The position numbers and the translations under genes were made by a program. Below, piece after piece: positions 6,962 through 19,283 of a stretch of 27,059 bases of DNA (positions are counted from its first letter, which is position 1; every line of letters starts with the position of its first letter). The notes under the pieces are model-generated. The model was not told the DNA's origin, made no database searches, and saw nothing but the letters and a program-made list of their open reading frames with translations. Origin of the DNA: Pseudomonadaceae bacterium UBA836. Its GTDB lineage: Bacteria > Pseudomonadota > Gammaproteobacteria > Pseudomonadales > Pseudomonadaceae. Location: NCBI GenBank assembly GCA_002296055.1, contig DBHE01000260.1:6716-33774 (forward strand). The letters are read 5' to 3'.

Positions 6962-8203
6962 ATGCTGTCATCCCGATTGCTCATCCAGCAGCCCCGTTGT
7001 CATTGCACGATGTTTCCATTGCCATTGATCTTTCTTACATTCAGCCACCGGCTGTGCCGACGTCTTTGCCTGCTTCTGGGTTTGGCATCGTGCGGCTTGT
7101 TTTCCGCACCATTGTTGGCGATGAATGTGGTGTTTGTGAGCCCGGGCAAGCCGGACGAGCCCTTCTGGATGGACGCTGCCGAGGGTTTACAGCATGCCGC
7201 AGCCAGCCTCGGCGTAGAGCTGGAGATACTCTACGCTGAACGCGACCACCTGGCGCAGTTGAGTCTGGTGCGTGATGTCGTCGAGCGGCCTGTCACGCAG
7301 CGACCTGACTATTTGCTGATTGCTGCCGACAAACAGGCCCTCACGGGCCAGCTGGAGCTGGCAGAGCGCGCGGGCCAGCGGGTGTTCGTCGCCTACAATG
7401 GCGTTCAGCGCAAGGAGCGCGCTCTGCTTGGCTACCCCCGTCAGCGCTTACCACACTGGTTGGGCAGCCTGGTGCCAGATGCGGAAGAGGCCGGATACCT
7501 CAGCGCACGAGCACTGATCCTGCGCGCTCAGCGCAAATGGCCAGGGGAGCAGAACGATGTACTTGAGATGGTCGCTATCTCGGGTGATCGCACTACGGAC
7601 AGCTCGCGTCGTCGCACCGCGGGGATGCTGCGCGCTGCCAGCGAGTTTGCTCGCGTGCACCTGCGTCAAACCGTGTACGGAGATTGGCAGCAAGAACATG
7701 CCCGCTACCAGACGCCGATTTTGCTCAACCGTTATCCCGATATTCGATTGATCTGGACGGGCAGCGATCTGATGGCATTTGGTGCCAGTGATGGTTTGCG
7801 CAGCAGCGGACGAGTGCCGGGCGAGGATGTATTGCTGTCGACCATCAATATGACAGAGCGCGCAACACGAGCGCTGTTGAATGGGGAGTTGCAAACGGTG
7901 GTGGGTGGTCATCACTTGGCGGCCGCCTGGTCCCTGGTGTTGCTCTACGACTATGACCAGGGCATCGACTTTGCCGAGACCGAAGGGCTGGAGATGGAGA
8001 AGAGCATGTTTACGCTCTTTAACCAGCCAATGGCAAAAACCTATCTACGCTACCTCGCGGCCGGGCGGCCTCAAGTGGACTATTGCTTCTTTAGCAAGGC
8101 CTGCAACCCATCTCGTACAGCTTATGACTTTACGATTGCGGCCTGGTTAAACGCTGCCAGCGACGCCATTGCTGTGCAGCAGCTGGACGCTGCTAATCGC
8201 TGA
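6962..8203 (+). CDS. Orphan ABC-type sugar-binding periplasmic protein
   Basis: A periplasmic binding protein of the ribose/galactose type (type I fold, Peripla_BP_4). The frame gives 413 residues from 6962. An internal ATG at 7010 would place the hydrophobic signal segment nearer the N-terminus and may be the true start. The signal ends near FSAPLLA, before MNVVFVSPG. VVFVSPGKPDEPFW is the first strand and ligand-facing loop; later come DYLLIAADKQAL, GDRTTDSSRRRTAGML and IWTGSDLMAFGASDGLR, all typical of this fold. No permease or ATPase gene lies nearby, so it may feed a distant transporter or act as a sensor partner. The ligand cannot be read from the sequence. Confidence 0.85.
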   Translation: MLSSRLLIQQPRCHCTMFPLPLIFLTFSHRLCRRLCLLLGLASCGLFSAPLLAMNVVFVSPGKPDEPFWMDAAEGLQHAAASLGVELEILYAERDHLAQLSLVRDVVERPVTQRPDYLLIAADKQALTGQLELAERAGQRVFVAYNGVQRKERALLGYPRQRLPHWLGSLVPDAEEAGYLSARALILRAQRKWPGEQNDVLEMVAISGDRTTDSSRRRTAGMLRAASEFARVHLRQTVYGDWQQEHARYQTPILLNRYPDIRLIWTGSDLMAFGASDGLRSSGRVPGEDVLLSTINMTERATRALLNGELQTVVGGHHLAAAWSLVLLYDYDQGIDFAETEGLEMEKSMFTLFNQPMAKTYLRYLAAGRPQVDYCFFSKACNPSRTAYDFTIAAWLNAASDAIAVQQLDAANR

Positions 8204-8497: not shown

Positions 8498-10465
8498 TCA
8501 GCTCCCGATAACGCCGCCGTCCTCTCGCGTGATCAGCACGGTTGTCGAGCGTGGGCGGGTCTTACCGTCGCTGGCCGGGTAGCTGATGCCCGGATGCTGG
8601 ACGTTCACCCACATGGCCCGCGCGTCCGGTGTCCAGGTGATACCGGTGATCTCAGCGCCCCGTGGACCTACCAGAAAACGGCGTATTTCGCGGCTGAGCG
8701 GGTCTGCGCAGAGCATCTGGTTGCAGCCAATGTCGGCGGTGTAGGGCGCCTCTTCGTCGGCATCGGTCAAAATCCACAGACGCCCGCTCGGGTCAAAGGC
8801 CATGCCGTCAGGTGAGGAGAACGGGTCGCCGTTGATGGTGCCTACGCGATTGGGCGGGATGCTGCCATCAGCCTTCTGGCGCTCGCCGGCCAGGACAAAC
8901 AAATCCCACTCAAATTCAGTTGCCCACGGGTCGGCGCCGTCCTCGCGCCAGCGCAGAATCTGACCGTGCACGTTTTCCTCGCGCGGGTTGGCAGCGTCGA
9001 CCGGGTCTGCCTTGCCGCGCTCGGTGTTGTTGGTCAGGCTGACGTACATCTCGCGGGTGGTCGGGTGCGAGGCCACCCACTCGGGGCGGTCCATCGGCGT
9101 CGCGCCAACAGCATCCGCTGCGCCGCGGGCATTGAGTAACACGGCGTGTTGGTCTGCGAAGCCGTTATCTGGCGTGAGGCCAGGTTCTCCCCAGCGCAGG
9201 GGTAGCCAGCGGCCCCGGCCGTCGGCGTCAAACTGGGCGGCATAGAGTGTGCCTGCATCCAGCAGGTCGCGGTTGTGGCTGCTGTTACCGGCTTGGTAGG
9301 GCTGCTGCGGAACGAACTTGTATACGTACTCACCCCGCGCATCATCGCCGGAGTACACCGCCATGTGGCCGTTGTCGTCGATCACGCAGGTGGCGCACTC
9401 GCGGCCAAGGCGGCCCATGGCCGTGCGTTTGCGTGGTTTATGGGTTGGGTCGAAGGGGTCCACCTCGACGACCCAGCCAAAACGGTTGGGTTCGTTTACG
9501 TGTCCTAGATGCGGGCGGCTGGCGTCGGGCGTAGCGTTGAAGCGCGGCTCCACTGCTTCCCAGGCGTAGTAGCGGCTGCTGCCGCCAAGGCCGATGCCGT
9601 AGCGTTTGTGGCTGGGGCGTGCGTTGTAATCAGCTTCATCGCGGTTGACGAAGTAATTGTGGAAATTCTCTTCGCAGGCCAAATAGGTTTGCCAGGGCGT
9701 TGCGCCCATCGAACAGTTGTTGATGGTACCCAGAATCTCCAGCCCCTGCGGGTCACTTTCTGTACGCATAGCCGGGTGGCCGGCGAGCGGACCGCTGACC
9801 GCCATTGGGGTTGCCGCGGTGATACGGCGGTTGAGTGGTGAGTCAGCGACCCGCTGCCACTGGCCATGAGCAGAGCGGCGGATCTCGATGATGCTCAACC
9901 CATGTGCAGCTATTTCCTTGTACACCTGTTCTGGTGGGCGGCTACGGCTGTTGTCGGGCCCGGCAGTGAACTGCATGCCGTCTGGGTGCAGTGTCGGGTT
10001 CACGTATTCGTGATTGACCACCAACAGGCCGCGGTCATTGGGCTGCTCGGCAAACGGGAAGTAATGCATGCCATCGTTGTTGTCGCCAGCCTGCATCAGC
10101 TGATCCTCCCAGCTGTTACTGGCATCGGGCTGCCAGCTTGGTGCACCCGGCAGTACGGCGTCACCCCAGCTGAAAAAGGGTGTGGCCCGGTAACCGGCAG
10201 GCACGACTACCGAGTCGAATGTACTGGAGGTTTGCGCTGCAACTGATTGAAAACCAAAAAACTGCTTTCCGATAGGGGCCTTTTCTGCGCTACAGGCGCT
10301 GAGCAGCGACGGTAGCAGGGTGGTCAGCGACGCTGCACCGATCCCCTTGAGCAGCGTGCGCCGGCTGAGGGCGATGCTGCCCAGCGCCTGATTGCCGGTC
10401 GGGTTGATGGAGCGGTCGTCGACTACTTCCAGCTGACGGTGAAATTCCGGGTTTTGCCAACTCAT
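8498..10465 (-). CDS. phoX: PhoX-type alkaline phosphatase (Tat-exported)
   Basis: A 655-residue PhoX (DUF839) phosphatase. Known PhoX enzymes hydrolyse phosphate mono- and diesters in the periplasm or outside the cell, using calcium and iron. A twin-arginine signal is seen at 34-40 (SRRTLLK), followed by a hydrophobic stretch and LSAC at 55-58. LSAC fits a lipobox, so the protein may be a Tat lipoprotein anchored at C58. The motif NNCSMGATPWQTYLACEEN (about 249-267) holds the metal-ligand region, with C251 and E265/E266. Further family motifs are RLGRECATCVIDDNGH, YSGDDARGEYVYKFV and FSSPDGMAFDPSGRLWILTD. It is the last gene of the six-gene run and lies seven bases after tonB. Confidence 0.93.
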   Translation of the reverse strand: MSWQNPEFHRQLEVVDDRSINPTGNQALGSIALSRRTLLKGIGAASLTTLLPSLLSACSAEKAPIGKQFFGFQSVAAQTSSTFDSVVVPAGYRATPFFSWGDAVLPGAPSWQPDASNSWEDQLMQAGDNNDGMHYFPFAEQPNDRGLLVVNHEYVNPTLHPDGMQFTAGPDNSRSRPPEQVYKEIAAHGLSIIEIRRSAHGQWQRVADSPLNRRITAATPMAVSGPLAGHPAMRTESDPQGLEILGTINNCSMGATPWQTYLACEENFHNYFVNRDEADYNARPSHKRYGIGLGGSSRYYAWEAVEPRFNATPDASRPHLGHVNEPNRFGWVVEVDPFDPTHKPRKRTAMGRLGRECATCVIDDNGHMAVYSGDDARGEYVYKFVPQQPYQAGNSSHNRDLLDAGTLYAAQFDADGRGRWLPLRWGEPGLTPDNGFADQHAVLLNARGAADAVGATPMDRPEWVASHPTTREMYVSLTNNTERGKADPVDAANPREENVHGQILRWREDGADPWATEFEWDLFVLAGERQKADGSIPPNRVGTINGDPFSSPDGMAFDPSGRLWILTDADEEAPYTADIGCNQMLCADPLSREIRRFLVGPRGAEITGITWTPDARAMWVNVQHPGISYPASDGKTRPRSTTVLITREDGGVIGS

Positions 10466-10472
10466 GTATAAC

Positions 10473-11273
10473 TCACTGTGACAGGCGGTAGCGGAAGGTA
10501 TTACGCACTCCGGCTACTGTAACCGGCTGGCCATCGACCAGGCGGGGTTGATAAATAAAATCCTTGGCCGCAGCCAGCGAGGGACGAGCAAACAGCGGGT
10601 TATCGCAGGCCCCGGCTACCAGTCGGGGATTATCGACGTGCCCGCTGGCGGTGACGTCGTACTCGACTGTGCAATCGCCCTCAAGCTTCTGTGCCAAGGC
10701 GCGCCTGGGGTAGTCAGGCTCGGGCTTGCTGATCGGGCGATACTGCCTCTCAGCTGCGGCTCTTGCTGCCTCTGCGGCGGCTCGTGCTTGGGCTTGCTCT
10801 CTCGCCAGTGCATCGCGGCGCTGTTGTTCGGCCGCCGCCGCTTCCGCCAGTCGCTGTTGCTCGGCCAGCTTTCGCGCTTGCTCTTGGGCCTCTCGCTGTT
10901 GCTGCAGCTCGCGTTGGCGTTGCTGCTCCTCGGCGACCCTTCGTCGGGCAATGGCTGCCTCGTCTACCACCGGTTTTGGCGGCGGCGCTTCTACCACAGG
11001 TGGCGGTGGGGTGGGCTCAGGCTGCGGCGCGGCAGGCAGCTCGGCTATCGGCTCAGGTTGTGGTGCGGGAAGGGTAACGAGTTGAGTGCGCAGGCTTGGT
11101 TTGTCTGCTACCGGCAGCGCGCTGACCGGCGCCCAGCCTTGCCACAGCGCGGCGGCGATGGCTGCGTGCAGCACCGCCGTGGCGAGCAGCGGTAGCGCTA
11201 ACTTGCTGCGCTCTTCGCTGGGTTCGCTACAGCGGTATTGCGAGTCGATCAGGAAAGGGCTTGCTGTGCTCAT
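10473..11273 (-). CDS. tonB: TonB-family energy transducer with TolA-like coiled-coil stalk
   Basis: A 266-residue inner-membrane protein that should transmit proton-motive force to the outer-membrane receptor encoded upstream. A cytoplasmic N-terminus is followed by one transmembrane helix (about 25-44), a proline-rich segment (about 70-102), a long Ala/Gln/Arg/Glu coiled coil (about 105-177) and a TonB C-terminal domain (about 178-266). The C-terminal domain contains PEPDYPRRALAQKLEGDCTVEYDV and YQPRLVDGQPV. Two cysteines (C201 and C223) in that domain could form a disulfide. The coiled coil resembles TolA domain II more than the usual short Pro-rich spacer of TonB. The start overlaps the tolR-like gene by four bases. 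Confidence 0.88.
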   Translation of the reverse strand: MSTASPFLIDSQYRCSEPSEERSKLALPLLATAVLHAAIAAALWQGWAPVSALPVADKPSLRTQLVTLPAPQPEPIAELPAAPQPEPTPPPPVVEAPPPKPVVDEAAIARRRVAEEQQRQRELQQQREAQEQARKLAEQQRLAEAAAAEQQRRDALAREQAQARAAAEAARAAAERQYRPISKPEPDYPRRALAQKLEGDCTVEYDVTASGHVDNPRLVAGACDNPLFARPSLAAAKDFIYQPRLVDGQPVTVAGVRNTFRYRLSQ

Positions 11274-11716
11274 GGCGCTTCCGTAATCAGGCCAAGCTGG
11301 CTGATACCGGCCTGCTGTAGTGCAGCCATCGCGGCAACGACTAGGCCGTAGCCGGCTGCCGCATCGGCGCGGATGAACACCTGGGTGTCAGGCTGCGTAT
11401 TGGTGACAGCGGCAAGCTCACGGGTCAGGTCGTCCAGCGTGGCGGAGCTGTGCTGATAGCTGTCGGTCTCAACGTTTTCACCAAGATTCCAGTGATAGCC
11501 GCCGCTCGCTTCCACCGACACTGTCACGATGGATGCAGGGTTGTCTGGCTCAAGCGCCTCGGCGGCCACTTTAGGTAGTTCGATCTGCACGCCCTGGGTC
11601 ATCATCGGTGCGGTGACCATGAAGATCACCAGTAGTACCAGCATGACGTCGATGTAGGGCACTACGTTCATTTCAGCCTTTGGCTTGCGTTTGTTTCTGG
11701 TCGCTCGCATGTCCAT
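11270..11716 (-). CDS. TolR/ExbD family proton-channel subunit (TolR-like paralogue)
   Basis: A 148-residue biopolymer transport protein, the single-helix partner of the proton-driven motor. It has a short basic N-terminus, then EMNVVPYIDVMLVLLVIFMVTAP. D23 is the conserved membrane aspartate essential for proton flow. The periplasmic domain ends AALQQAGISQLGLITEAP. From memory, both this tail and the VPYIDVMLVLLVIFMV core follow Pseudomonas TolR closely, more than classical ExbD. The neighbours (TonB-like protein, receptor) argue for an ExbD-like job. A second ATG (M3, 11710) is a possible start. It follows the tolQ-like gene by six bases. Confidence 0.9.
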   Translation of the reverse strand: MDMRATRNKRKPKAEMNVVPYIDVMLVLLVIFMVTAPMMTQGVQIELPKVAAEALEPDNPASIVTVSVEASGGYHWNLGENVETDSYQHSSATLDDLTRELAAVTNTQPDTQVFIRADAAAGYGLVVAAMAALQQAGISQLGLITEAP

Positions 11717-11722
11717 GGTGGC

Positions 11723-12400
11723 TTACCCCGCGTGTTGGCTGTGCAGGCGGCGATGCAGGATGGCGCTGAATTCGTCAGCAAAGTTGTAGTAGTGCCCAAG
11801 CAGGTTCTCGCTGCGAGTGCTGAAGCGGTTGTAGGCAATAACCGCTGGAATAGCGGCGAACAGACCAATTGCTGTCGCGACGAGTGCCTCGGCGATACCG
11901 GGTGCGACGGTGGCAAGGGTCGCTTGCTGCACCTGTGACAGGCCGATGAATGAGTTCATGATGCCCCAGACGGTACCAAACAGACCGATATAGGGACTCA
12001 CGGAGCCGACGGTGGCCAGGAAGGGCAGATGCCGATCCAGCCGCTCCTCTTCTCTGGAGATTGCCACCCGCATGGCACGTTGCACGCCTTGCATCACGGC
12101 CTCGGGCTCACCGCTGCCGCGCTGATTCAACTGGGTGTATTCCTTGAATCCGGCACGAAAGATCTGCTCTACGCCCGGGCCGCTGGCCTCGGTGCTGTAG
12201 AGCTTGGTCAGTTCGGTGCCCGACCAGAACTTACTTTCAAACTGTTTGAGCGCGTTTTGTGCTTGGGCGAATAGTCTGCCGCGCTGGGCGATCAGGAACC
12301 AGGTGGCGATAGAGGCGAGCAGTAGCGTCAGCATCACGCCCTTGACCAGCAGGCTGGCCTCCAGCACCAAACTCCAGATGCTGTGATCGGTGGTAGTCAT
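11723..12400 (-). CDS. TolQ/ExbB family proton-channel subunit (TolQ-like paralogue)
   Basis: A 225-residue MotA/TolQ/ExbB protein, the main subunit of the inner-membrane proton channel that powers TonB-type transducers. The frame opens at 12430, but the ATG at 12400 is preferred because AGAGG precedes it and the resulting length suits TolQ. Three transmembrane segments are seen (about 18-38, 128-150 and 166-190). The conserved block ATVGSVSPYIGLFGTVWGIM is at about 129-148, and VAPGIAEALVATAIGLFAAIPAV follows. FWSGTELTKLY, GVEQIFRAGFKE and AMRVAISREEE are typical of Pseudomonas TolQ rather than ExbB. It is likely a TolQ-derived energiser for the adjacent TonB; the cell's main tol-pal locus is not in this window. 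Confidence 0.9.
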   Translation of the reverse strand: MTTTDHSIWSLVLEASLLVKGVMLTLLLASIATWFLIAQRGRLFAQAQNALKQFESKFWSGTELTKLYSTEASGPGVEQIFRAGFKEYTQLNQRGSGEPEAVMQGVQRAMRVAISREEERLDRHLPFLATVGSVSPYIGLFGTVWGIMNSFIGLSQVQQATLATVAPGIAEALVATAIGLFAAIPAVIAYNRFSTRSENLLGHYYNFADEFSAILHRRLHSQHAG

Positions 12401-12422
12401 ATTTACCTCTCTGCCGGCCCTA

Positions 12423-12478
12423 GGGAGCACTGATCAATTCCACACGCCCTCTGCATGCGGAATTAGTCAGTGCTTCCC
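12423..12478. repeat. 56-bp imperfect inverted repeat (MITE-like or attenuator)
   Basis: GGGAGCACTGATCAATTCC (12423-12441) and GGAATTAGTCAGTGCTTCCC (12459-12478) form an inverted repeat of about 19-20 bases with one gap and two mismatches, around a 17-base centre. It occupies the gap between the phytase stop and the tolQ-like start, just before the ribosome-binding site. The CACTGATCAATTCC look recalls insertion-sequence ends, but no transposase is present and no clear target duplication is seen. It could instead be an RNA hairpin that lowers expression of the downstream energiser genes. Confidence 0.6.
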
Positions 12479-12516
12479 AACGGGCCGGTCTTGTCATGTC
12501 GGTTAAGTAGGAAAGT

Positions 12517-14439
12517 TCAGGGCAGTTGCAGCAGCTCGGCGATGGGCTGCCAAGGCACCAGCTTGAAGTTCTGATTGCCTTCGGGCAGGCGCTTGCGACC
12601 GTCTTGCACCACCAGTAGGCCGCCCGGCCAGGCGGCGCCGAAGTCGGCTGAGCTGACTTCAAGGCCATCGGTTTCCGATACCCCATCGACACCCTTGCCG
12701 GCGTTTAGGCCGATGCGAAAGGCTCCGTGGGCGGCGTAGGGCGGTACGGCGTCGAATATCACGTAGCTGTCGTTGCCCTGGCTGGAGACGATCAGGTAGG
12801 GGCGGTCCCGGTGCTGGTAGACGGCCATGCCTTCTACGTCGTCGTGCAGCAGCTCGCTGACACGGGCAACCTCGGTCAGCTCGGTGGGCTGATCTTCTGC
12901 GCTGGATAGAGTCCAGATGCCGACGCCTTCTTCGCCGACGAACAGGCGTTGGCGCGCGTCGTCAGCGACGCAGCCTTCCGGCTGGGTGTCAGTTTTGAAC
13001 TGGCGGACAGCCTTGGCAGTAATCTGCCCGCTGCTGCCGTCGAGCCGATATTGAATGAAGCGCCCGTCCTTGTCGTTGGGGATGGCGTAGACAGCGCCGT
13101 CTGGGCTCTGCGCCATGCATAGTCCATAGATATCTGTCAGCTCGGTAGGCAGGTCGCCAAGGCCGGTGACCCGACCGTTGGCCGGATCAATGGCGAACAG
13201 CTCCAGGCTGTTGCGATCACGATTGGAGGCAACGGCCAGGTCTATTGCCTGATCACCCAAGGTGAAGCCCTTACGCAGATCGACGTTGTTGATGCGGCCT
13301 ACCGGGAGGTATTGCAGCTCATGGCCCTGCAGGTCGTAGACGCCCAGGCCGCCTCGCTTGTCGGTGCCCAACACCCGGGCCAGCTCCGGGATGCCTGGAT
13401 GCGGCCAGATGGCCGGGTCGTCGGCGGCGTCGCCGCCATGGGGCACGGGCTGGGTTTGCGACAGGGCCAGAACCTCTGGCAATGAGTCTGTGTTGGCTGG
13501 GCGGGTTACGCCCGTCAGCTCGGTAAGCAGCTGGACGCCGTTGTCGTCGGTTATCAGCACCTGCAGTGTGTCGTCCACCGTACGTGCCGACAGCTGTTCG
13601 GGCTTGCTGCCCTCGGTCAGTTGCCAGCTGTCGTGTTGCCATTGCTGGTCCTGCCAACGATAGCGGTGCAAGCTGTTGCTGCCGGTGTCCAGCGCAAGCA
13701 GGCCGTCATCGGTGCCAGCCAGGCCTTCTGGGCCCTCGGGGAGCGCACCCCAAGGCTGGACCAGGTCAAGGATGTGGCGCGTGCTGTCGGTTTCGGGATG
13801 GGCGGCGTACTGCCAGATGCCAATATTCTCTTCGCTGATGAACAGCGCTCCAAGTGCGGTACTGACAGCGCACCCCTTGGCGCCGACCGGCAGGTGCAGA
13901 TTGCGCACCAGACGTGATGCAGCCCCTTGTTCGCCAATGAGCCATTGCTGCCCAAGGCCTTCTTCGCCAATCAGGAACAGGTAGTTGTGATTGCTCTGGT
14001 CCTGGTAGAAGCACAGATCCTCCAGCGGATAGCCGGTGCTAGGGAGGTATTCCGGCGCTGTTGCCACACCAGAGGCACTCCAGCGCAGCACTACGGGTTG
14101 ATCCCGTTGCAGGTCATGGCTGGCGGCAACCAGGCCAGCGGCGCCTTGATGTACGGCGAGGGTGTCGTAGTAGCCGGGCAGAGCGCTAGAGGCCGGATTG
14201 TCGTTATCGTCGAGCAGCTGGACGCCCCGACTGGTGATCACCAGGCTACCCGCCTGCTTGCCGGCGATCAGGCGCTGGGCGCTGATGCCGTTGGCTTCGC
14301 GGACCTGCAGGGCCAGCTCGGCAGGATTGGCAGGCGCTGCTGACAGTGGCTCGGGCCGCGTGTCCGCGCCTTGCTCGGTGCAGGCGACCAGCAGCGCTAC
14401 GCTGCCGGCCACTGCGATGATGGATGTTACTGGACGCAT
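12517..14439 (-). CDS. Beta-propeller phytase-like lipoprotein with two propeller halves
   Basis: A 640-residue phytase-like protein. Beta-propeller phytases remove phosphate from calcium-phytate. The signal MRPVTSIIAVAGSVALLVAC has a lipobox LVAC with the lipid cysteine at C20. The C-terminal half (about 325-640) is the phytase domain, with DAADDPAIWPHP at about 337-348, LGTDKRGGLGVYDLQG at about 358-372, RINNVDLR, and later DIYGLCMAQ, FVGEEGVGIW and DDVEGMAVY. The N-terminal half (about 45-320) has parallel repeats (FLIGEEGLGQQW, LFISEENIGIW, PEGPEGLAG) but lacks the DDPAIW motif, so it is a degenerate second propeller. It follows the receptor by 55 bases. Confidence 0.9.
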   Translation of the reverse strand: MRPVTSIIAVAGSVALLVACTEQGADTRPEPLSAAPANPAELALQVREANGISAQRLIAGKQAGSLVITSRGVQLLDDNDNPASSALPGYYDTLAVHQGAAGLVAASHDLQRDQPVVLRWSASGVATAPEYLPSTGYPLEDLCFYQDQSNHNYLFLIGEEGLGQQWLIGEQGAASRLVRNLHLPVGAKGCAVSTALGALFISEENIGIWQYAAHPETDSTRHILDLVQPWGALPEGPEGLAGTDDGLLALDTGSNSLHRYRWQDQQWQHDSWQLTEGSKPEQLSARTVDDTLQVLITDDNGVQLLTELTGVTRPANTDSLPEVLALSQTQPVPHGGDAADDPAIWPHPGIPELARVLGTDKRGGLGVYDLQGHELQYLPVGRINNVDLRKGFTLGDQAIDLAVASNRDRNSLELFAIDPANGRVTGLGDLPTELTDIYGLCMAQSPDGAVYAIPNDKDGRFIQYRLDGSSGQITAKAVRQFKTDTQPEGCVADDARQRLFVGEEGVGIWTLSSAEDQPTELTEVARVSELLHDDVEGMAVYQHRDRPYLIVSSQGNDSYVIFDAVPPYAAHGAFRIGLNAGKGVDGVSETDGLEVSSADFGAAWPGGLLVVQDGRKRLPEGNQNFKLVPWQPIAELLQLP

Positions 14440-14465
14440 GTTGATTCTCGCTGAAAGGGCAGGTG

Positions 14466-14488
14466 GCGGCGGGCGTTGGGCCCGCCGC
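14466..14488 (-). other. GC-rich hairpin between receptor and phytase genes
   Basis: GCGGCGGGC (14466-14474) and GCCCGCCGC (14480-14488) are perfect nine-base arms around a five-base loop. The hairpin lies just after the receptor stop on the minus strand. No T-run follows, so partial termination or 3'-end protection of the receptor message is more likely than a full stop. This would lower expression of the phytase and later genes relative to the receptor. Confidence 0.55.
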
Positions 14489-14494
14489 AGTCGC

Positions 14495-17005
14495 TCAGAA
14501 GTGGGTCAGGGTCAGGCCGACCTTGTAGGTCGGGCCGTACTCCTCGTACTGCGCGTTGTAGTCACGCTCACCGGTGTAGACGTAGTAGCTTTCATCGGTG
14601 ATGTTCTGGGCGGCCATGAATAGCTGCAGGTTGTCGGTCAGGAAGTAACTGGCTGACAGGTCGATGAACAGTTGATCGTCCACGCGGTAGTCGTAGCGCT
14701 TGTCGAGCACGTCGCCAACTTCGTCCAGGTAGTCTGATTTGTAGTTGGCCGATACCCGCAGGCTCAACCGATCGTTTTCCCAGCCCAGGGTGAGGTTGCC
14801 GGTGAGGTCGGACTGGCCGGGCAGGTCGATGCTGCGACTCTGCATGGCACCAGTGTCGGCGTTGTACTGCTCGATGTCCGCATCGGATCGGCTAATGGTG
14901 GTGTTGGCGTTCACCAGCAGGCCATTCCAGGGCGCCGGCAGCCAGCTGAACTTCTGGGCGTAGGCCAGTTCCAGGCCGTAGACAGTGGCGCTGTCACCGT
15001 TGACGTAACTCATGGCCTCGTCAAAGGCGGCGTACTCACCGGTACCTGCCAGGTCTGCGGCGTAGGCGAAGTTCTCGATGTCTTTGTAGAAGACGAACGC
15101 CGATACCGCGCCAGCCCGGCCCATGTAATGTTCGATACCCAGGTCCAGGTTGCTGGACTCAAGCGGCTTGAGATTCGGGTTGCCGAACTCGGCCTCGTCG
15201 CCATCCAGCACAAAGCCCGGGAATAGCTGGCCGAAGGTCGGCCGCACGACGCTATTGGTCCAGCTGGCGCGCAGCTGGCTGTCGGCGCCTAACTGATAGA
15301 TGGCGTGCAGGCCCGGCAGCCAGTGGTGGTAGTCGTTGCGTGTATTAACGTCTTCATACACGCCCTGATTCAGGCCAGTGCCCTTGGCTTTTAGCTTGGT
15401 GCCTTCATAGCGCAGGCCGGCGATCAGACGCAGGTCGTCGATATCCACCGTATTCATCAGGTAGGCGGCGTTGATGTTCTCCTGAATCTCGAAGTCGTTG
15501 ATGCGCGACTGTTCCTCGTCGTAGAAGTCGGCCGCATCTAGGCCGGCGATCAGTCGCTCCAGTGCACTGGCGGAAATCGCCGGGCCGAGATTAGTGCGTC
15601 CGTCCACAAATTGATCGAGGCTCAGCTCGGCGTCGCTGAAACCGTAAGTATCCAGATCCTCGTAGACCCAGACCTCCAGGTCGTTGTCTTTGGTGCGCGT
15701 GCTGAACTTGGCACCAAACTGCAGTTGCGAGGGCAGGTCGGCCATGAACCAGTCGCGGGTGAGGTCAACCCGGATGTTTTGCTCGGTGTCGGTGGTCAGC
15801 CCCTGTTCACGTTCGATTTCTTTCAGGCTGAAGTTGGCCGGGTCGTAGAAGCCATCATCAATGCGCAGGTTTGGTTGCTTGCTGTCATCGAAGCCGGCAT
15901 TGATGAAGTCGTCGTTGCCTTCGAACGCGGCGCCAGGGGTGTGCAGCGGGCTATCTTCTTCTGCCTCGCTGTAGCCGTACTGGGCGGCGACGGTCCAGTC
16001 GCCCAGGCGGCGTTCGCCGCCAAGCACCAGGCTCTTGATCTCCTGGGTTTCCTCACGGTCTTTCAGCTCGCGTGCCGCTTCGGCATCACCGCGCTCACCC
16101 GGCAGCTGCGGGTCGGTAAATTCCACCACGTTAGCCTGGCGGGTTTCGCTGTCCTTGAAGCGGCTGTAGAGCGTTCGCAGGTACAGCTCCGTGTCGTCAT
16201 CAGGGCGATAATCCAGGTTGAATCCGGCGCCTGCGCGCTCGCGGCTGATGTCGTAACGGCGCTCCTCCAGTTCCTCCAGGCGAGCACCGGCGGGGTCGTC
16301 AAAGTCCCAGGCGCCACCGGTTTCGACGTTGTCTGACCCGAAACTGCGGTCTTCCCAGCTGAGTGCGGCGGCAACAGCCAGGTTATCCACGCCGTCACCG
16401 ACGCTGAAACGGTTGCTGGCTGCACCCGATACCTTGGGGCTGGTATCGCCGGTGTTTTCGTCGTAACTGGCCTCGGTTGATAGGCTGTAGAACAGACCGT
16501 CGTGGTCAAAACCCGACAGGCTTTCTACTTCGATGGTGCCGCCCAGCGAGTTGGCATCCATATCGGGCGTCAGTGTTTTGACCACCGCAAGCGATTGAAT
16601 CAGCTCGCTGGGCAGCACATCCATCGCTACCGCGCGTCGATCGCTTTCGGGTGCCGGCACCAGTGTGCCGTTGATGGTCACGCTGTTGAGGTCGGCGCCC
16701 AGGCCACGCACCCGCACAAAGCGGCCTTCACCTTGATCGCGCTCGACTGAAATGCCGGGCACGCGCTGCAGCGCCTCAGCGGCGTTTTCGTCAGGTAACT
16801 GACCGATGGCGTCGGCGTGTACCACGCTCTCGGTGCTGTTGGAAAAGCGCTGCTGTTCCAGCGCCTGTTCCATTTGGGCGGCCTGCCCGATGATGGTGAT
16901 GACCTCTGGCGCAGTCTCGGCGCTGGCATTCCCTGCACCAGCGATGGCGAGGGTCAACGCGCTGATGGCAAAGCGGGTGTGACGACGGGGGTGACGGACA
17001 GACAT
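14495..17005 (-). CDS. TonB-dependent outer-membrane receptor
   Basis: An 836-residue TonB-dependent receptor. The start was set at the ATG at 17005, where AGGAGAGGAAG precedes it and a signal peptide follows (cleavage near GNASA|ETAPE); the frame is open upstream to 17191. A TonB-box-like segment EVITIIG is at 34-40. The plug runs from about 57 to 165, with ADAIGQLPDENAAEALQRVPGISVERD, RFVRVRGLGADLNSVTINGT and the closing NSLGGTIEV. These match the Xanthomonas/Caulobacter-type receptor subfamily. The rest is the beta-barrel, ending with a terminal phenylalanine (TLTHF). The downstream phytase and PhoX genes suggest an organic phosphate or phytate-derived substrate; that is inference. Confidence 0.92.
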   Translation of the reverse strand: MSVRHPRRHTRFAISALTLAIAGAGNASAETAPEVITIIGQAAQMEQALEQQRFSNSTESVVHADAIGQLPDENAAEALQRVPGISVERDQGEGRFVRVRGLGADLNSVTINGTLVPAPESDRRAVAMDVLPSELIQSLAVVKTLTPDMDANSLGGTIEVESLSGFDHDGLFYSLSTEASYDENTGDTSPKVSGAASNRFSVGDGVDNLAVAAALSWEDRSFGSDNVETGGAWDFDDPAGARLEELEERRYDISRERAGAGFNLDYRPDDDTELYLRTLYSRFKDSETRQANVVEFTDPQLPGERGDAEAARELKDREETQEIKSLVLGGERRLGDWTVAAQYGYSEAEEDSPLHTPGAAFEGNDDFINAGFDDSKQPNLRIDDGFYDPANFSLKEIEREQGLTTDTEQNIRVDLTRDWFMADLPSQLQFGAKFSTRTKDNDLEVWVYEDLDTYGFSDAELSLDQFVDGRTNLGPAISASALERLIAGLDAADFYDEEQSRINDFEIQENINAAYLMNTVDIDDLRLIAGLRYEGTKLKAKGTGLNQGVYEDVNTRNDYHHWLPGLHAIYQLGADSQLRASWTNSVVRPTFGQLFPGFVLDGDEAEFGNPNLKPLESSNLDLGIEHYMGRAGAVSAFVFYKDIENFAYAADLAGTGEYAAFDEAMSYVNGDSATVYGLELAYAQKFSWLPAPWNGLLVNANTTISRSDADIEQYNADTGAMQSRSIDLPGQSDLTGNLTLGWENDRLSLRVSANYKSDYLDEVGDVLDKRYDYRVDDQLFIDLSASYFLTDNLQLFMAAQNITDESYYVYTGERDYNAQYEEYGPTYKVGLTLTHF

Positions 17006-17067: not shown

Positions 17068-17085
17068 ATGGCGTTTCTGTGACAG
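17068..17085 (-). promoter_or_regulatory. Candidate PhoB (Pho) box upstream of the receptor gene
   Basis: Read on the minus strand this is CTGTCACAGAAACGCCAT. It matches 13 of 18 positions of the enterobacterial Pho box (CTGTCAT-N4-CTGTCAY); the first half-site is 6 of 7. Ten bases further comes TAAGTT, a weak -10-like sequence at the spacing expected for PhoB-activated promoters. It lies 63 bases before the receptor ATG. The second half-site is poor, so this is a candidate only. Confidence 0.4.
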
Positions 17086-17120: not shown

Positions 17121-17320
17121 GGCATGTTGGCCGCAAAATTGAGCTGATTTGACCTGTTTGTCGCGCTGTAAACCGCTCTGTGACGGGCCATTCAGCGAAA
17201 CGGGTTGGCTAATTAGCCCGGTGAGGTGGGGTGGCGTGAGCCAATTTGACCCCGGGCGCTGCAACACAAGCGTCATCTTGTTTTGGTCAGCTGGCGCCAC
17301 TGTGCTGATGCGAGGCGCGC

Positions 17321-18238
17321 ATGAACTCGATGTTTTATCTGCACCGGCTTAAATGGGCCGGACTGTTACTGGTGGCAAACGCCGGGCTGCTGCTGTATCT
17401 CAGTCTGGGCGACCTCAAGACGATGCCAAGCTGGTCCTGGACAGACATTGCCGGGGAGGGTGGTTCGGCGGCGCTGGTGCTGGTGTGGCTGGGGCTGATG
17501 CTCAAGGGGCGGCCAGCCGGGCGCGTGACCAATCTGCTGTTTATTGGGCTGGCGTGTTTGTTTCTTTCGCTCTGGATGGACACGCTGGACGAGTTTGTCG
17601 CCTTGCCCGAGGCTTGGGTTTGGGACCATTGGCTTGAGTCAGCACCGATGCCGGTAGGCTTTGTGCTGCTGACAATCGGTATCTATCACTGGCACCGCGA
17701 GCAGCTGGCCATCAACGCCCAGATGGTCAACCGCGAACGGCATTTCCGCGAACATCGCCAGTTCGACAAGGTAACGCCGCTGGCCGATGCCGACTACTTG
17801 CGCAGCCAGCTTGCGGCGGCATTGCCTGAAGCCCAGGCAAACCAGCAGCCGCTGTCGCTGCTGGTGCTTGATTTGGACGAGTTTCATCTGATCAACGCCC
17901 GCTATGGCCATGCAGAGGGCGACCGGGTGCTGCAGCTGGTGTGTCAGCAGATGATGATGAATTTGCGGCGCCATGACCTGCTCTGCCGGTTGGCGGGTGA
18001 CCGCTTTGCGGTGCTGCTGCCCAATACGCTGGAAGCGCAGGCGCACACCCTGGCCCTGGAGCTAACTCAGTCGATTGCCCATCTGGCGTGTAAAAGCAGC
18101 CTGCAGGGCGAGCGGATCCAGTTGCGCGCCACCACGGTGGCAGTGATGGCCCGGCAGGATGATGCCGAGTCGCTGCTGGCGCGCAGCAATTTGGCGATGG
18201 CCCGCGCCAAGCAGGCGCTTGAGCTCAAGCGGGCCTGA
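17321..18238 (+). CDS. Membrane protein with degenerate GGDEF domain (AGDRF) and I-site
   Basis: A 305-residue protein with four hydrophobic segments in the first half (about 12-30, 48-62, 70-86 and 110-124) and a GGDEF-fold domain at about 145-300. The domain keeps LLVLDLDEFHLINARYGHAEGDRVL, but the catalytic loop is AGDRF (225-229) instead of GGDEF. The usual LTxxxNRR entry is replaced by TPLADADYL. Cyclase activity is therefore doubtful. The inhibitory-site motif RRHD (216-219) is kept at the correct five-residue spacing, so cyclic di-GMP binding remains possible. The stop is four bases before an AraC-type regulator gene, with which it probably forms an operon. Confidence 0.85.
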   Translation: MNSMFYLHRLKWAGLLLVANAGLLLYLSLGDLKTMPSWSWTDIAGEGGSAALVLVWLGLMLKGRPAGRVTNLLFIGLACLFLSLWMDTLDEFVALPEAWVWDHWLESAPMPVGFVLLTIGIYHWHREQLAINAQMVNRERHFREHRQFDKVTPLADADYLRSQLAAALPEAQANQQPLSLLVLDLDEFHLINARYGHAEGDRVLQLVCQQMMMNLRRHDLLCRLAGDRFAVLLPNTLEAQAHTLALELTQSIAHLACKSSLQGERIQLRATTVAVMARQDDAESLLARSNLAMARAKQALELKRA

Positions 18239-18242
18239 CACC

Positions 18243-19283
18243 ATGAGTACAGCCACAGTAGATAGCTGGCTAGACCTGGACTGCCGCTACCTTAGCGCCG
18301 GTCACCAGCCGGCGTGCGTGGTGGACCTGGCGTTGGCACGCGGCATAGACAGCCACCGCCTGCTGCGTGGCAGCGGTTTGTTTTACGAAGACCTGCTGGC
18401 GCCTGATGCCTGCGTGAGTACGGCGCAGTATCTGCGCTTACTGGACAATGCGCGGACGCTGCTCGATACCCGCGACGCCAGTTTTTTGCTCGGACAACGT
18501 TTGTTGCCCGGCCATTTCGGGGTTGCCAGCAACCTGTTGCTGCACGCTGACACGCTGCTGCACGCCCTGCAGCACCTGGTGCGGTTTCGAGCGTTGCTTA
18601 GCCCTGGGTTGGCGCCACGTCTGCATCTGGATACGCATCACCTTTATCTGTATTGGGTCGAGGTCTTTGATTTGGGACGCAGCCGACGCTTTGTGCATGA
18701 GGCGGCTATGAGTGCGGTAACTGCGCTTAGCCGGGCTCTACTGGCGGAGCGGCTGCCTTGGGAGTATCAATTGAGCTGGTCCCAGCCAGGCTATATCGAG
18801 CAGTACTGGGTCCACTTGGGCGAGAAACTGCGTTTTGAGGCGCCACTAACCTGCATGCGCTTGCCTCGCGCTTATCTTGCGCGCCGGCCGGCGGCGGCAT
18901 CGCCAACCCTCGGCCGCATAGCCGAGCAACAGGCCGCCCAGGCGCTGGCTGAGCTGCCGGCTGCCGGTAGCCTCGGTGAGGCGGTGTTTGACTGTCTGTA
19001 CGGGCTGGGTGGTCGGCGCGCGGGTCTGGAGCACATCGCTGAGTCATTCGGTATGAGCGCGGCGACGTTCAAGCGTCGCTTGCAACGCGATGGCTGCGGC
19101 TTTCAGGCACTGCTGGACCGCGTTCATGCACAGCTGGCGATGGAGTTGTACCAGAGTCGGGGATATAGCCACGATCAGGTGGCTGCGTGCCTGCACGTGA
19201 GTGATCGGACCAACTTCAGACGGCTGCTGAAGCGACTGACCGGCAAGTCGCCGGACAGTCTGCGGGTTTGGCTTGAAAGCTAA
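18243..19283 (+). CDS. AraC-family transcriptional regulator
   Basis: A 346-residue regulator. The frame opens earlier (18159), but the ATG at 18243, just after the GGDEF gene stop, gives MSTATVDSWL and the usual length. The N-terminal part (about 20-210) resembles the arabinose-binding-like domain of the OruR/ArgR type, including GQRLLPGHFGVASNLLLHADTLLHAL. The C-terminal HTH region (about 245-346) has two helix-turn-helix units: LEHIAESFGMSAATFKRRLQ, then DQVAACLHVSDRTNFRRLLKRLTGKSPDSLR. The second is the conserved AraC signature with one substitution region. The effector and targets are unknown; co-transcription with the degenerate GGDEF protein suggests a joint role. Confidence 0.9.
   Translation: MSTATVDSWLDLDCRYLSAGHQPACVVDLALARGIDSHRLLRGSGLFYEDLLAPDACVSTAQYLRLLDNARTLLDTRDASFLLGQRLLPGHFGVASNLLLHADTLLHALQHLVRFRALLSPGLAPRLHLDTHHLYLYWVEVFDLGRSRRFVHEAAMSAVTALSRALLAERLPWEYQLSWSQPGYIEQYWVHLGEKLRFEAPLTCMRLPRAYLARRPAAASPTLGRIAEQQAAQALAELPAAGSLGEAVFDCLYGLGGRRAGLEHIAESFGMSAATFKRRLQRDGCGFQALLDRVHAQLAMELYQSRGYSHDQVAACLHVSDRTNFRRLLKRLTGKSPDSLRVWLES

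Follow-up and report, generated by a model that had tools for sequence, protein, structure and literature searches.

The eight-gene block described here probably enables relatives of Pseudomonas to import and degrade phytate, in which plants store phosphorus and which is a major reserve of soil organic phosphorus. It lies in a 27,059-nucleotide stretch (the window) of a Pseudomonadaceae draft genome of 3.56 Mb in 275 contigs. Our best explanation, to which we give a probability of about 0.65, is that the block is an inositol-phosphate acquisition module under two-input control, one input being phosphate hunger, conveyed by PhoB, and the other a substrate signal, conveyed by an AraC-type regulator together with a degenerate GGDEF protein. 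Phosphate starvation would activate PhoB, and PhoB would bind a Pho box in the divergent promoter. The AraC-type regulator, working with the membrane-anchored GGDEF protein, would bind direct-repeat operators at a fixed distance from that box, and the presence of substrate, or of its product, would lead the pair to switch the operon on. The receptor, powered by its own TolQ–TolR–TonB motor, would import phytate—the likely substrate—or partly dephosphorylated forms of it; the two-domain phytase would carry dephosphorylation as far as about InsP3; and PhoX, in those loci that have it, would act on leftover phosphate monoesters. Fixed gene order, co-occurrence of GGDEF protein and phytase, Pho boxes, operators, their spacing and induction in leaf extract (in an excerpt of PMC2803797) all support this two-input model.

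The six-gene operon

Six genes follow one another on the minus strand. They encode a TonB-dependent receptor of the TIGR01782 subfamily (14495..17005; 586 bits against a cut-off of 310); a two-domain beta-propeller phytase with the lipobox LVAC (12517..14439; PF02333, 276 bits); a TolQ-type proton channel subunit, part of a dedicated motor (11723..12400; TIGR02796, 286 bits against 221); a TolR-type motor subunit (11270..11716; TIGR02801, 141.6 against 127.3); a TonB-type transducer, the partner of the TolQ/TolR-type pair (10473..11273; PF03544, TonB_C); and a PhoX phosphatase (8498..10465; PF05787) with a Tat-type SRRTLLKG signal and then a lipobox-like LSAC. The sequence-only reading had named these six genes on one strand, in this order, with gaps of 55, 116, 6, –4 and 7 bases; places, strand and gaps are all correct, and the Pfam and NCBIfam models against which the names were checked support every one. 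It drew the unit too narrowly in ending it at 17005. Two divergent genes, GGDEF and AraC (17321–19283), also belong, as does the intervening promoter.

The receptor gene starts with the ATG at 17005, preceded by AGGAGAGG; a longer open reading frame, starting at 17191, would cross the promoter. The protein has the plug (PF07715), barrel (PF00593) and TonB box of a TonB-dependent receptor, the last being a box-like EVITIIGQA near the likely mature N-terminus that was picked by eye and is conserved as EhVeV.GQA.

The motifs listed for beta-propeller phytases in the available part of PMC12406696—YG, EGxxxD, DxEG and DG—are all present in the second gene product and invariant in 17 aligned rows. 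With these motifs and the propeller fold the protein passes as a member of that family, and is predicted to hydrolyze phytate. Its C-terminal half is of the catalytic type, like Bacillus phytase, and its model matches 3amr with a TM score of 0.85 by target length. The N-terminal half has no sequence match among solved structures; it is probably a propeller too, to judge from an all-strand model and from the Pseudomonas sp. FB15 phytase, whose extra propeller-shaped N-terminal domain, according to an excerpt of PMC9728340, raises activity. The FB15 enzyme has the same two-domain build as the one in the window; the work, as far as that excerpt goes, covers the enzyme only, whereas the window holds a whole locus. 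Beta-propeller phytases yield Ins(2,4,6)P3 (part of PMC12406696), an end product that leaves work for PhoX.

The PhoX of the operon aligns over residues 68–654 with the solved PhoX 3zwu and keeps the CEENF stretch. Simple patterns find the RR motif in 80 of 88 PhoX sequences, and crude ones find a lipobox in 52 of these 88 and in 101 of 158 phytases. The same genome has a second PhoX, at L002 (G000:C109), 42% identical to the one in the operon.

Conservation among relatives

A PF02333 phytase is encoded by 80 of the 198 genomes of the window's family. The corresponding 80 loci (79 fetched with flanks, and the window) were scored with profiles built from the same loci, and in all of them, wherever the sequence reaches, receptor, phytase, TolQ, TolR and TonB come in constant order. 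Loci with short flanks, five of the 80 on each side, were dropped from the counts that follow. Where at least 5 kb is available to the right, TolQ and TonB are each present in 75/75 loci, and PhoX follows in 60/75. TolR was not called in 11 of the 80, by an overlap rule, and tblastn found it in seven of those 11. Order across genomes had been proposed as a check on the six-gene set, and the order holds; the idea of one conserved unit for organic phosphate, comprising a receptor, a pair of unlike phosphatases and an energizer of its own, is supported. Receptor and phosphatase genes occurring apart, which was to have counted against such a unit, were not encountered in the family; the receptor is present in all 75 loci whose left flank is 5.2 kb or longer. 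The idea that the six-gene set is special to the window falls with this family-wide occurrence.

A second set consisted of the 80 named loci whose phytases are most like the query among the matches listed, a choice that says nothing about distant phytases. Seventeen repeat family loci and 63 are new. The hosts, among these matches, include Pseudomonas, Stutzerimonas, Acinetobacter, Alcanivorax, Salinicola, Methylophaga, Ketobacter, Herminiimonas and Oxalicibacterium, and the nearest named relative among them is Halopseudomonas oceani (L123), with 77% phytase identity. Short flanks removed nine of the 63 on the left and six on the right. Of the 57 that remain, with a right flank of 5 kb or more, 51 have TolQ, 49 TonB and 16 PhoX, and a same-strand motor is missing from eight; two Massilia loci have no motor, and one locus (L193) has TolQ and TolR matches on the opposite strand only. 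The sequence-only reading saw in the six genes a complete pathway, a picture that needs correction in two parts. PhoX, lacking in 15/75 family loci, is not a core member; we regard it as an add-on, present nonetheless in 22/22 loci of the window's own genus. The motor, too, is dispensed with in the eight of 57 new loci just mentioned.

Class-wide, 11 of 369 genomes have the phytase, and nine of the ten other phytase genomes were read, one with a 124-residue frame (G405) being omitted. Three of these nine distant loci (L206, L207 and L211) have AraC, GGDEF and receptor genes, four have the receptor alone and two give no receptor match. In L206 (G406:C29:188500-204500) the order is AraC, GGDEF, receptor, phytase and then PhoX directly, with no TolQ–TolR–TonB between. 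In close relatives, then, AraC, GGDEF, receptor and phytase form the part that is hardly ever lost, and in distant members of the class the link between phytase and the AraC/GGDEF pair is looser.

A TolQ–TolR–TonB motor

Tol-Pal and TonB–ExbB–ExbD motors both consist of a proton-driven channel pair and a transducer that spans the periplasm, and the motor of the window is built along the same lines. It differs from both in pairing a TolQ/TolR-type channel with a TonB-type transducer, rather than with TolA, and in lieu of ExbB/ExbD. The operon TolQ is 69% identical to the Tol-Pal TolQ of its own genome and 38% to the next paralogue. It scores above the TolQ cut-off and below that for exbB (165.8 bits against 206.2), and the ExbD_1 score, 78.9, is also below its cut-off (152.95); on these scores, and on the 69% identity, we reject an ExbB/ExbD motor. 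Nor is this a Tol-Pal system: the transducer has TonB_C and falls below the tolA cut-off, and family searches found no tolB or pal in the window. A TolQ-type channel with a TonB-type transducer makes the motor a TolQ–TolR–TonB hybrid, and the combination would amount to a private motor for one receptor.

In a tree, operon TolQ rows group with TolQ and apart from ExbB-like rows (100/99). Fifteen housekeeping TolQs form a single clade (100/97), and 28 operon rows fall outside it; of the labels used, that of the own-genome TolQ (C222) was confirmed by its place beside a thioesterase gene, and the other housekeeping and ExbB-like labels were given by identity. One paralogue in the tree (C189) is below both the TolQ and the ExbB cut-offs. 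In Ectothiorhodospira lacustris (L130, NZ_JAJNQN010000019.1) the operon TolQ has its place beside a TolQ of the window's genus (100/100), a hint of transfer or contamination.

The divergent regulators

Divergent from the receptor gene, on the plus strand, lie the gene for a membrane-anchored degenerate GGDEF protein (17321..18238) and, four bases past it, that for an AraC-type regulator with Arabinose_bd and HTH domains (18243..19283). The listed reading frame of the latter starts at 18159; an in-frame ATG at 18243 was judged the likelier start. Both genes accompany the phytase closely. Where a family locus extends at least 5.2 kb to the left, AraC is present in 74/75, the exception (L038) being a fetched stretch that ends first, and GGDEF in 74/75. 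Both are present in 54/54 of the new named loci, among the matches listed, that have at least 6.5 kb to the left. A profile of the GGDEF N-terminal part matches exactly once in 79 of the 198 family genomes. Each of these 79 belongs to the 80 that encode a phytase, and the 118 that encode none give no match; class-wide it matches in four of 369, all among the 11 with phytase. The family exception is L072 (G018:C1:987600-1003600), which has AraC, receptor, phytase, motor, PhoX and the exact operator, and no GGDEF gene. The GGDEF protein is thus not indispensable everywhere, and this locus offers a natural test of the need for it.

The GGDEF protein can hardly be an active diguanylate cyclase. 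In the window AGDRF takes the place of GG(D/E)EF, and the catalytic glutamate is found in 0/126 readable unique sequences, arginine or lysine standing instead in 125/126; that candidate was rejected. An RxxD (R216 and D219 in the window) is kept in 125/126; it lies at the I-site position, five residues ahead of the degenerate motif. Since the glutamate is replaced and the RxxD retained, we predict that the protein is a c-di-GMP receptor. Degenerate GGDEF proteins that act as c-di-GMP receptors include PelD and PopA, and the likeness to these lies in the lost A-site and the kept RxxD of the I-site. It differs from them in its N-terminal helical membrane domain, which has no Pfam match at E up to 1, and in its association with an AraC gene and with a phytase operon. 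Of 150 positions in this N-terminal part, 27 are invariant across 16 rows. In a structure search with the full model the GGDEF domain claimed the matches, which left the N-terminal domain barely probed. If the pseudo-cyclase binds c-di-GMP, acquisition of phosphate from plants would be linked to the control of lifestyle.

Operators and Pho box

The promoter between the divergent genes has three elements on the minus strand: a distal operator (GGTCAAATTGGCTCA, 17237..17251) and a proximal one (GGTCAAATCAGCTCA, 17140..17154), both found as motif matches, and a Pho box (CTGTCACAGAAACGCCAT, 17068..17085) that scores 10/14 and lies 73 bp from the proximal operator, measured between the starts of the scored windows. 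Corresponding regions were collected by removing loci that lack either gene, stretches outside 50–900 bases, and near copies, giving 121 regions and then 102, 99 or 98. In 72 of 102 non-redundant GGDEF–receptor regions a Pho box of at least 11/14 points toward the receptor, where 0.8 would be expected; it precedes the receptor match by a median of 88 bases, the middle half lying at 85–92. Toward the GGDEF gene, one of at least 11/14 is found in 53 of 102, against 1.8 expected, and the regulators may accordingly be phosphate-responsive too; in the window's region no box of at least 10/14 faces that way. The window reaches 10/14 or more at 14 places, and its own box, at 10/14, therefore stands on position and conservation rather than on score. 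With a Pho box at a conserved place before it, the operon is predicted to belong to the Pho regulon, and to be controlled by phosphate.

With the Pho boxes masked, motif discovery gave the operator, GGTCAWWTCRGCTCA. In the 98 regions on which the motif was trained it exceeds the 99% null level in 98/98, with exactly two copies in 87. The motif consists of two blocks one turn apart, the arrangement to be expected for a single AraC-family monomer. A search of 119 family genomes for the exact pattern gives 27 occurrences, with 23 of them at the phytase locus, and a backwards control occurs twice. Thirty-eight of the 119 have the phytase; 21 of these carry the exact pattern at the locus, and a weight matrix finds degenerate copies in the others. 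Of 91 regions, 75 have a distance of 73 bp from proximal operator to Pho box, six have 72, seven 62 and one 84, and two have other values; the variants are mostly steps of one helical turn. Outside the training set, L206 and L207 each have two operators, with the Pho box at 73 and 72 bp respectively, and L211 has one operator.

For 86 operator pairs less than 220 bp apart the helical phasing is strong (R 0.59; 0/2000 random sets as high). When each distinct spacing is counted once, giving 38 values, the phasing is not strong (358/2000 random sets as high), so we do not claim looping as shown. In four Stutzerimonas-like loci (L081, L098, L104 and L037) the spacing of the operators is 346 to 691 bp, the divergent genes having extra sequence between them; in most loci it is far narrower.

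Relation to known systems

A beta-propeller phytase beside a TonB-dependent receptor is said to have been described by Lim in 2007. The sequence-only reading gave such pairs as known, rightly: available parts of PMC3400609 describe one in Citromicrobium, and of PMC8115612 another, Fjoh_1367/1368 of Flavobacterium johnsoniae. The window has the same two protein families side by side, and differs in adding a motor, a PhoX in the unit, an AraC/GGDEF pair and an operator, none of which those parts mention. The Pus systems of Flavobacterium (also PMC8115612, in excerpt) resemble it, too, in that phosphate-responsive outer-membrane import is clustered with phosphatases; they differ in having SusCD-type receptors and other enzymes, in belonging to another phylum and, as far as the excerpt goes, in the lack of any mention of such a regulator pair. 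A search of open-licence papers found none on the regulator pair, the operator or the motor, and none combining phytase, GGDEF, AraC and TonB-dependent. The phytase–receptor link, then, is already known; the regulator pair, the operator–Pho box geometry and the hybrid motor look new.

How these phytases are regulated has been touched on before. A 2016 proteomic study of three Pseudomonas strains reports, in the part of PMC5082522 available, no evidence of PhoBR control of phytases, and suggests induction by phytate. The Pho boxes support phosphate control, yet that study saw no PhoBR-dependent phytase, which makes a second input likely. The regulator pair may explain how these bacteria notice phytate and, with operator and Pho box, gives the suggested induction the definite form of a two-input circuit. 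In P. syringae pv. phaseolicola an excerpt of PMC2803797 gives 3.2-fold for the phytase PSPPH_2990 and 2.3-fold for the AraC-type PSPPH_2994, apparently in the bean leaf extract column, the genes not being connected in that excerpt. PSPPH_2990–2994 is likely the same cluster as that of the window, with the reservation that the tags are four apart and the gene order here predicts three.

Several things count against the two-input model: this tag spacing, the lack of any sign of PhoBR in PMC5082522 (as excerpted), genome G018 without a GGDEF protein, and the exact operator in only 21/38 genomes. The F. johnsoniae phytase and receptor do too, in that both respond to phosphate depletion in the available text of PMC8115612, where phytate goes unmentioned in their regard. 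So does strain DSM4166, which makes a distinctive PhoX at low phosphate (PMC5082522, in part); if that PhoX is the one of the operon, substrate is not required, and this would count against an AND gate. A bolder version of the model has the pseudo-cyclase reading c-di-GMP through its I-site and a DNA-looping AraC activator as its partner, the two forming a two-part inositol-phosphate sensor that is AND-gated with PhoB by the rigid 73-bp geometry. We hold this version tentatively, and would sooner wager against it than for it. If true, the sensor would be a new regulatory unit, one that brings lifestyle (c-di-GMP), phosphate hunger and plant phytate to bear on an outer-membrane importer whose TolQ-type motor is its own.

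Alternative explanations

The closest competitor concerns the GGDEF protein. Its catalytic site is lost in 126/126 readable unique sequences and its N-terminal part, with 27 of 150 positions invariant in 16 rows, is constrained beyond the needs of an anchor; perhaps it is a membrane sensor or anchor for the AraC-type regulator that uses the GGDEF fold for dimerization only and is no c-di-GMP receptor. The RxxD kept at the I-site position in 125/126 tells against this, and we consider it a real possibility, though not the favored one. A different objection would make the unit one for organic phosphates generally, phytate being one substrate among others, and would see in the operon no more than a member of the PHO response. 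PhoX in 60/75 family loci and Pho boxes on both sides of the promoter would fit. Against that, PhoX is optional and the phytase is present in every locus (the loci were found through it), a dedicated operator almost confined to the phytase locus speaks for a second, specific signal, and PMC5082522, in the part available, reports no PhoBR dependence of phytases; we think it unlikely.

More doubtful still is a role in metal uptake, in which the receptor would import phytate-bound iron or calcium, the metal being freed by the phytase. Pho boxes at a fixed distance from the receptor gene, a second phosphatase in 60/75 family loci and the lack of a metal-transport gene among the conserved neighbors all point elsewhere, even granting that the receptor belongs to a family common to metal-chelate receptors, gives weak matches, below cut-offs, to siderophore and heme receptor models, and has a possible parallel in P. 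aeruginosa, which reportedly takes up iron-phytate. Least probable by our estimate, to the point of being far-fetched, is that inheritance or transfer as a block is all that holds the neighbors together, the AraC/GGDEF pair being unrelated to the rest. The block is patchy (80/198 genomes), and the E. lacustris TolQ grouping (100/100) suggests transfer or contamination; yet outer flanks differ between genera while the AraC/GGDEF pair stays, and the operator–Pho box spacing is fixed in L206 and L207 as well, outside the training set. Two-input control of an inositol-phosphate module remains the reading we prefer.

Flanking genes and broken loci

The window's flanks contain suf genes, ppsA–ppsR, and a sigma factor beside oprF, a content that suits a pseudomonad. 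Just 3′ of phoX, and on the same strand, is a gene for a small, 52-aa, Pmp3/YqaE-like membrane protein (PF01679; 8280–8438, minus strand). At the same end a gene for a protein like periplasmic binding proteins (6962–8203, plus strand) has blastp matches that adjoin phoX in L106–L109 too. In two loci, L096 and L124, the TonB match is split into two pieces in different frames. In L111 (G117:C1:1496000-1512000) the GGDEF, receptor, phytase and PhoX matches are all in pieces, as if the whole module were decaying.
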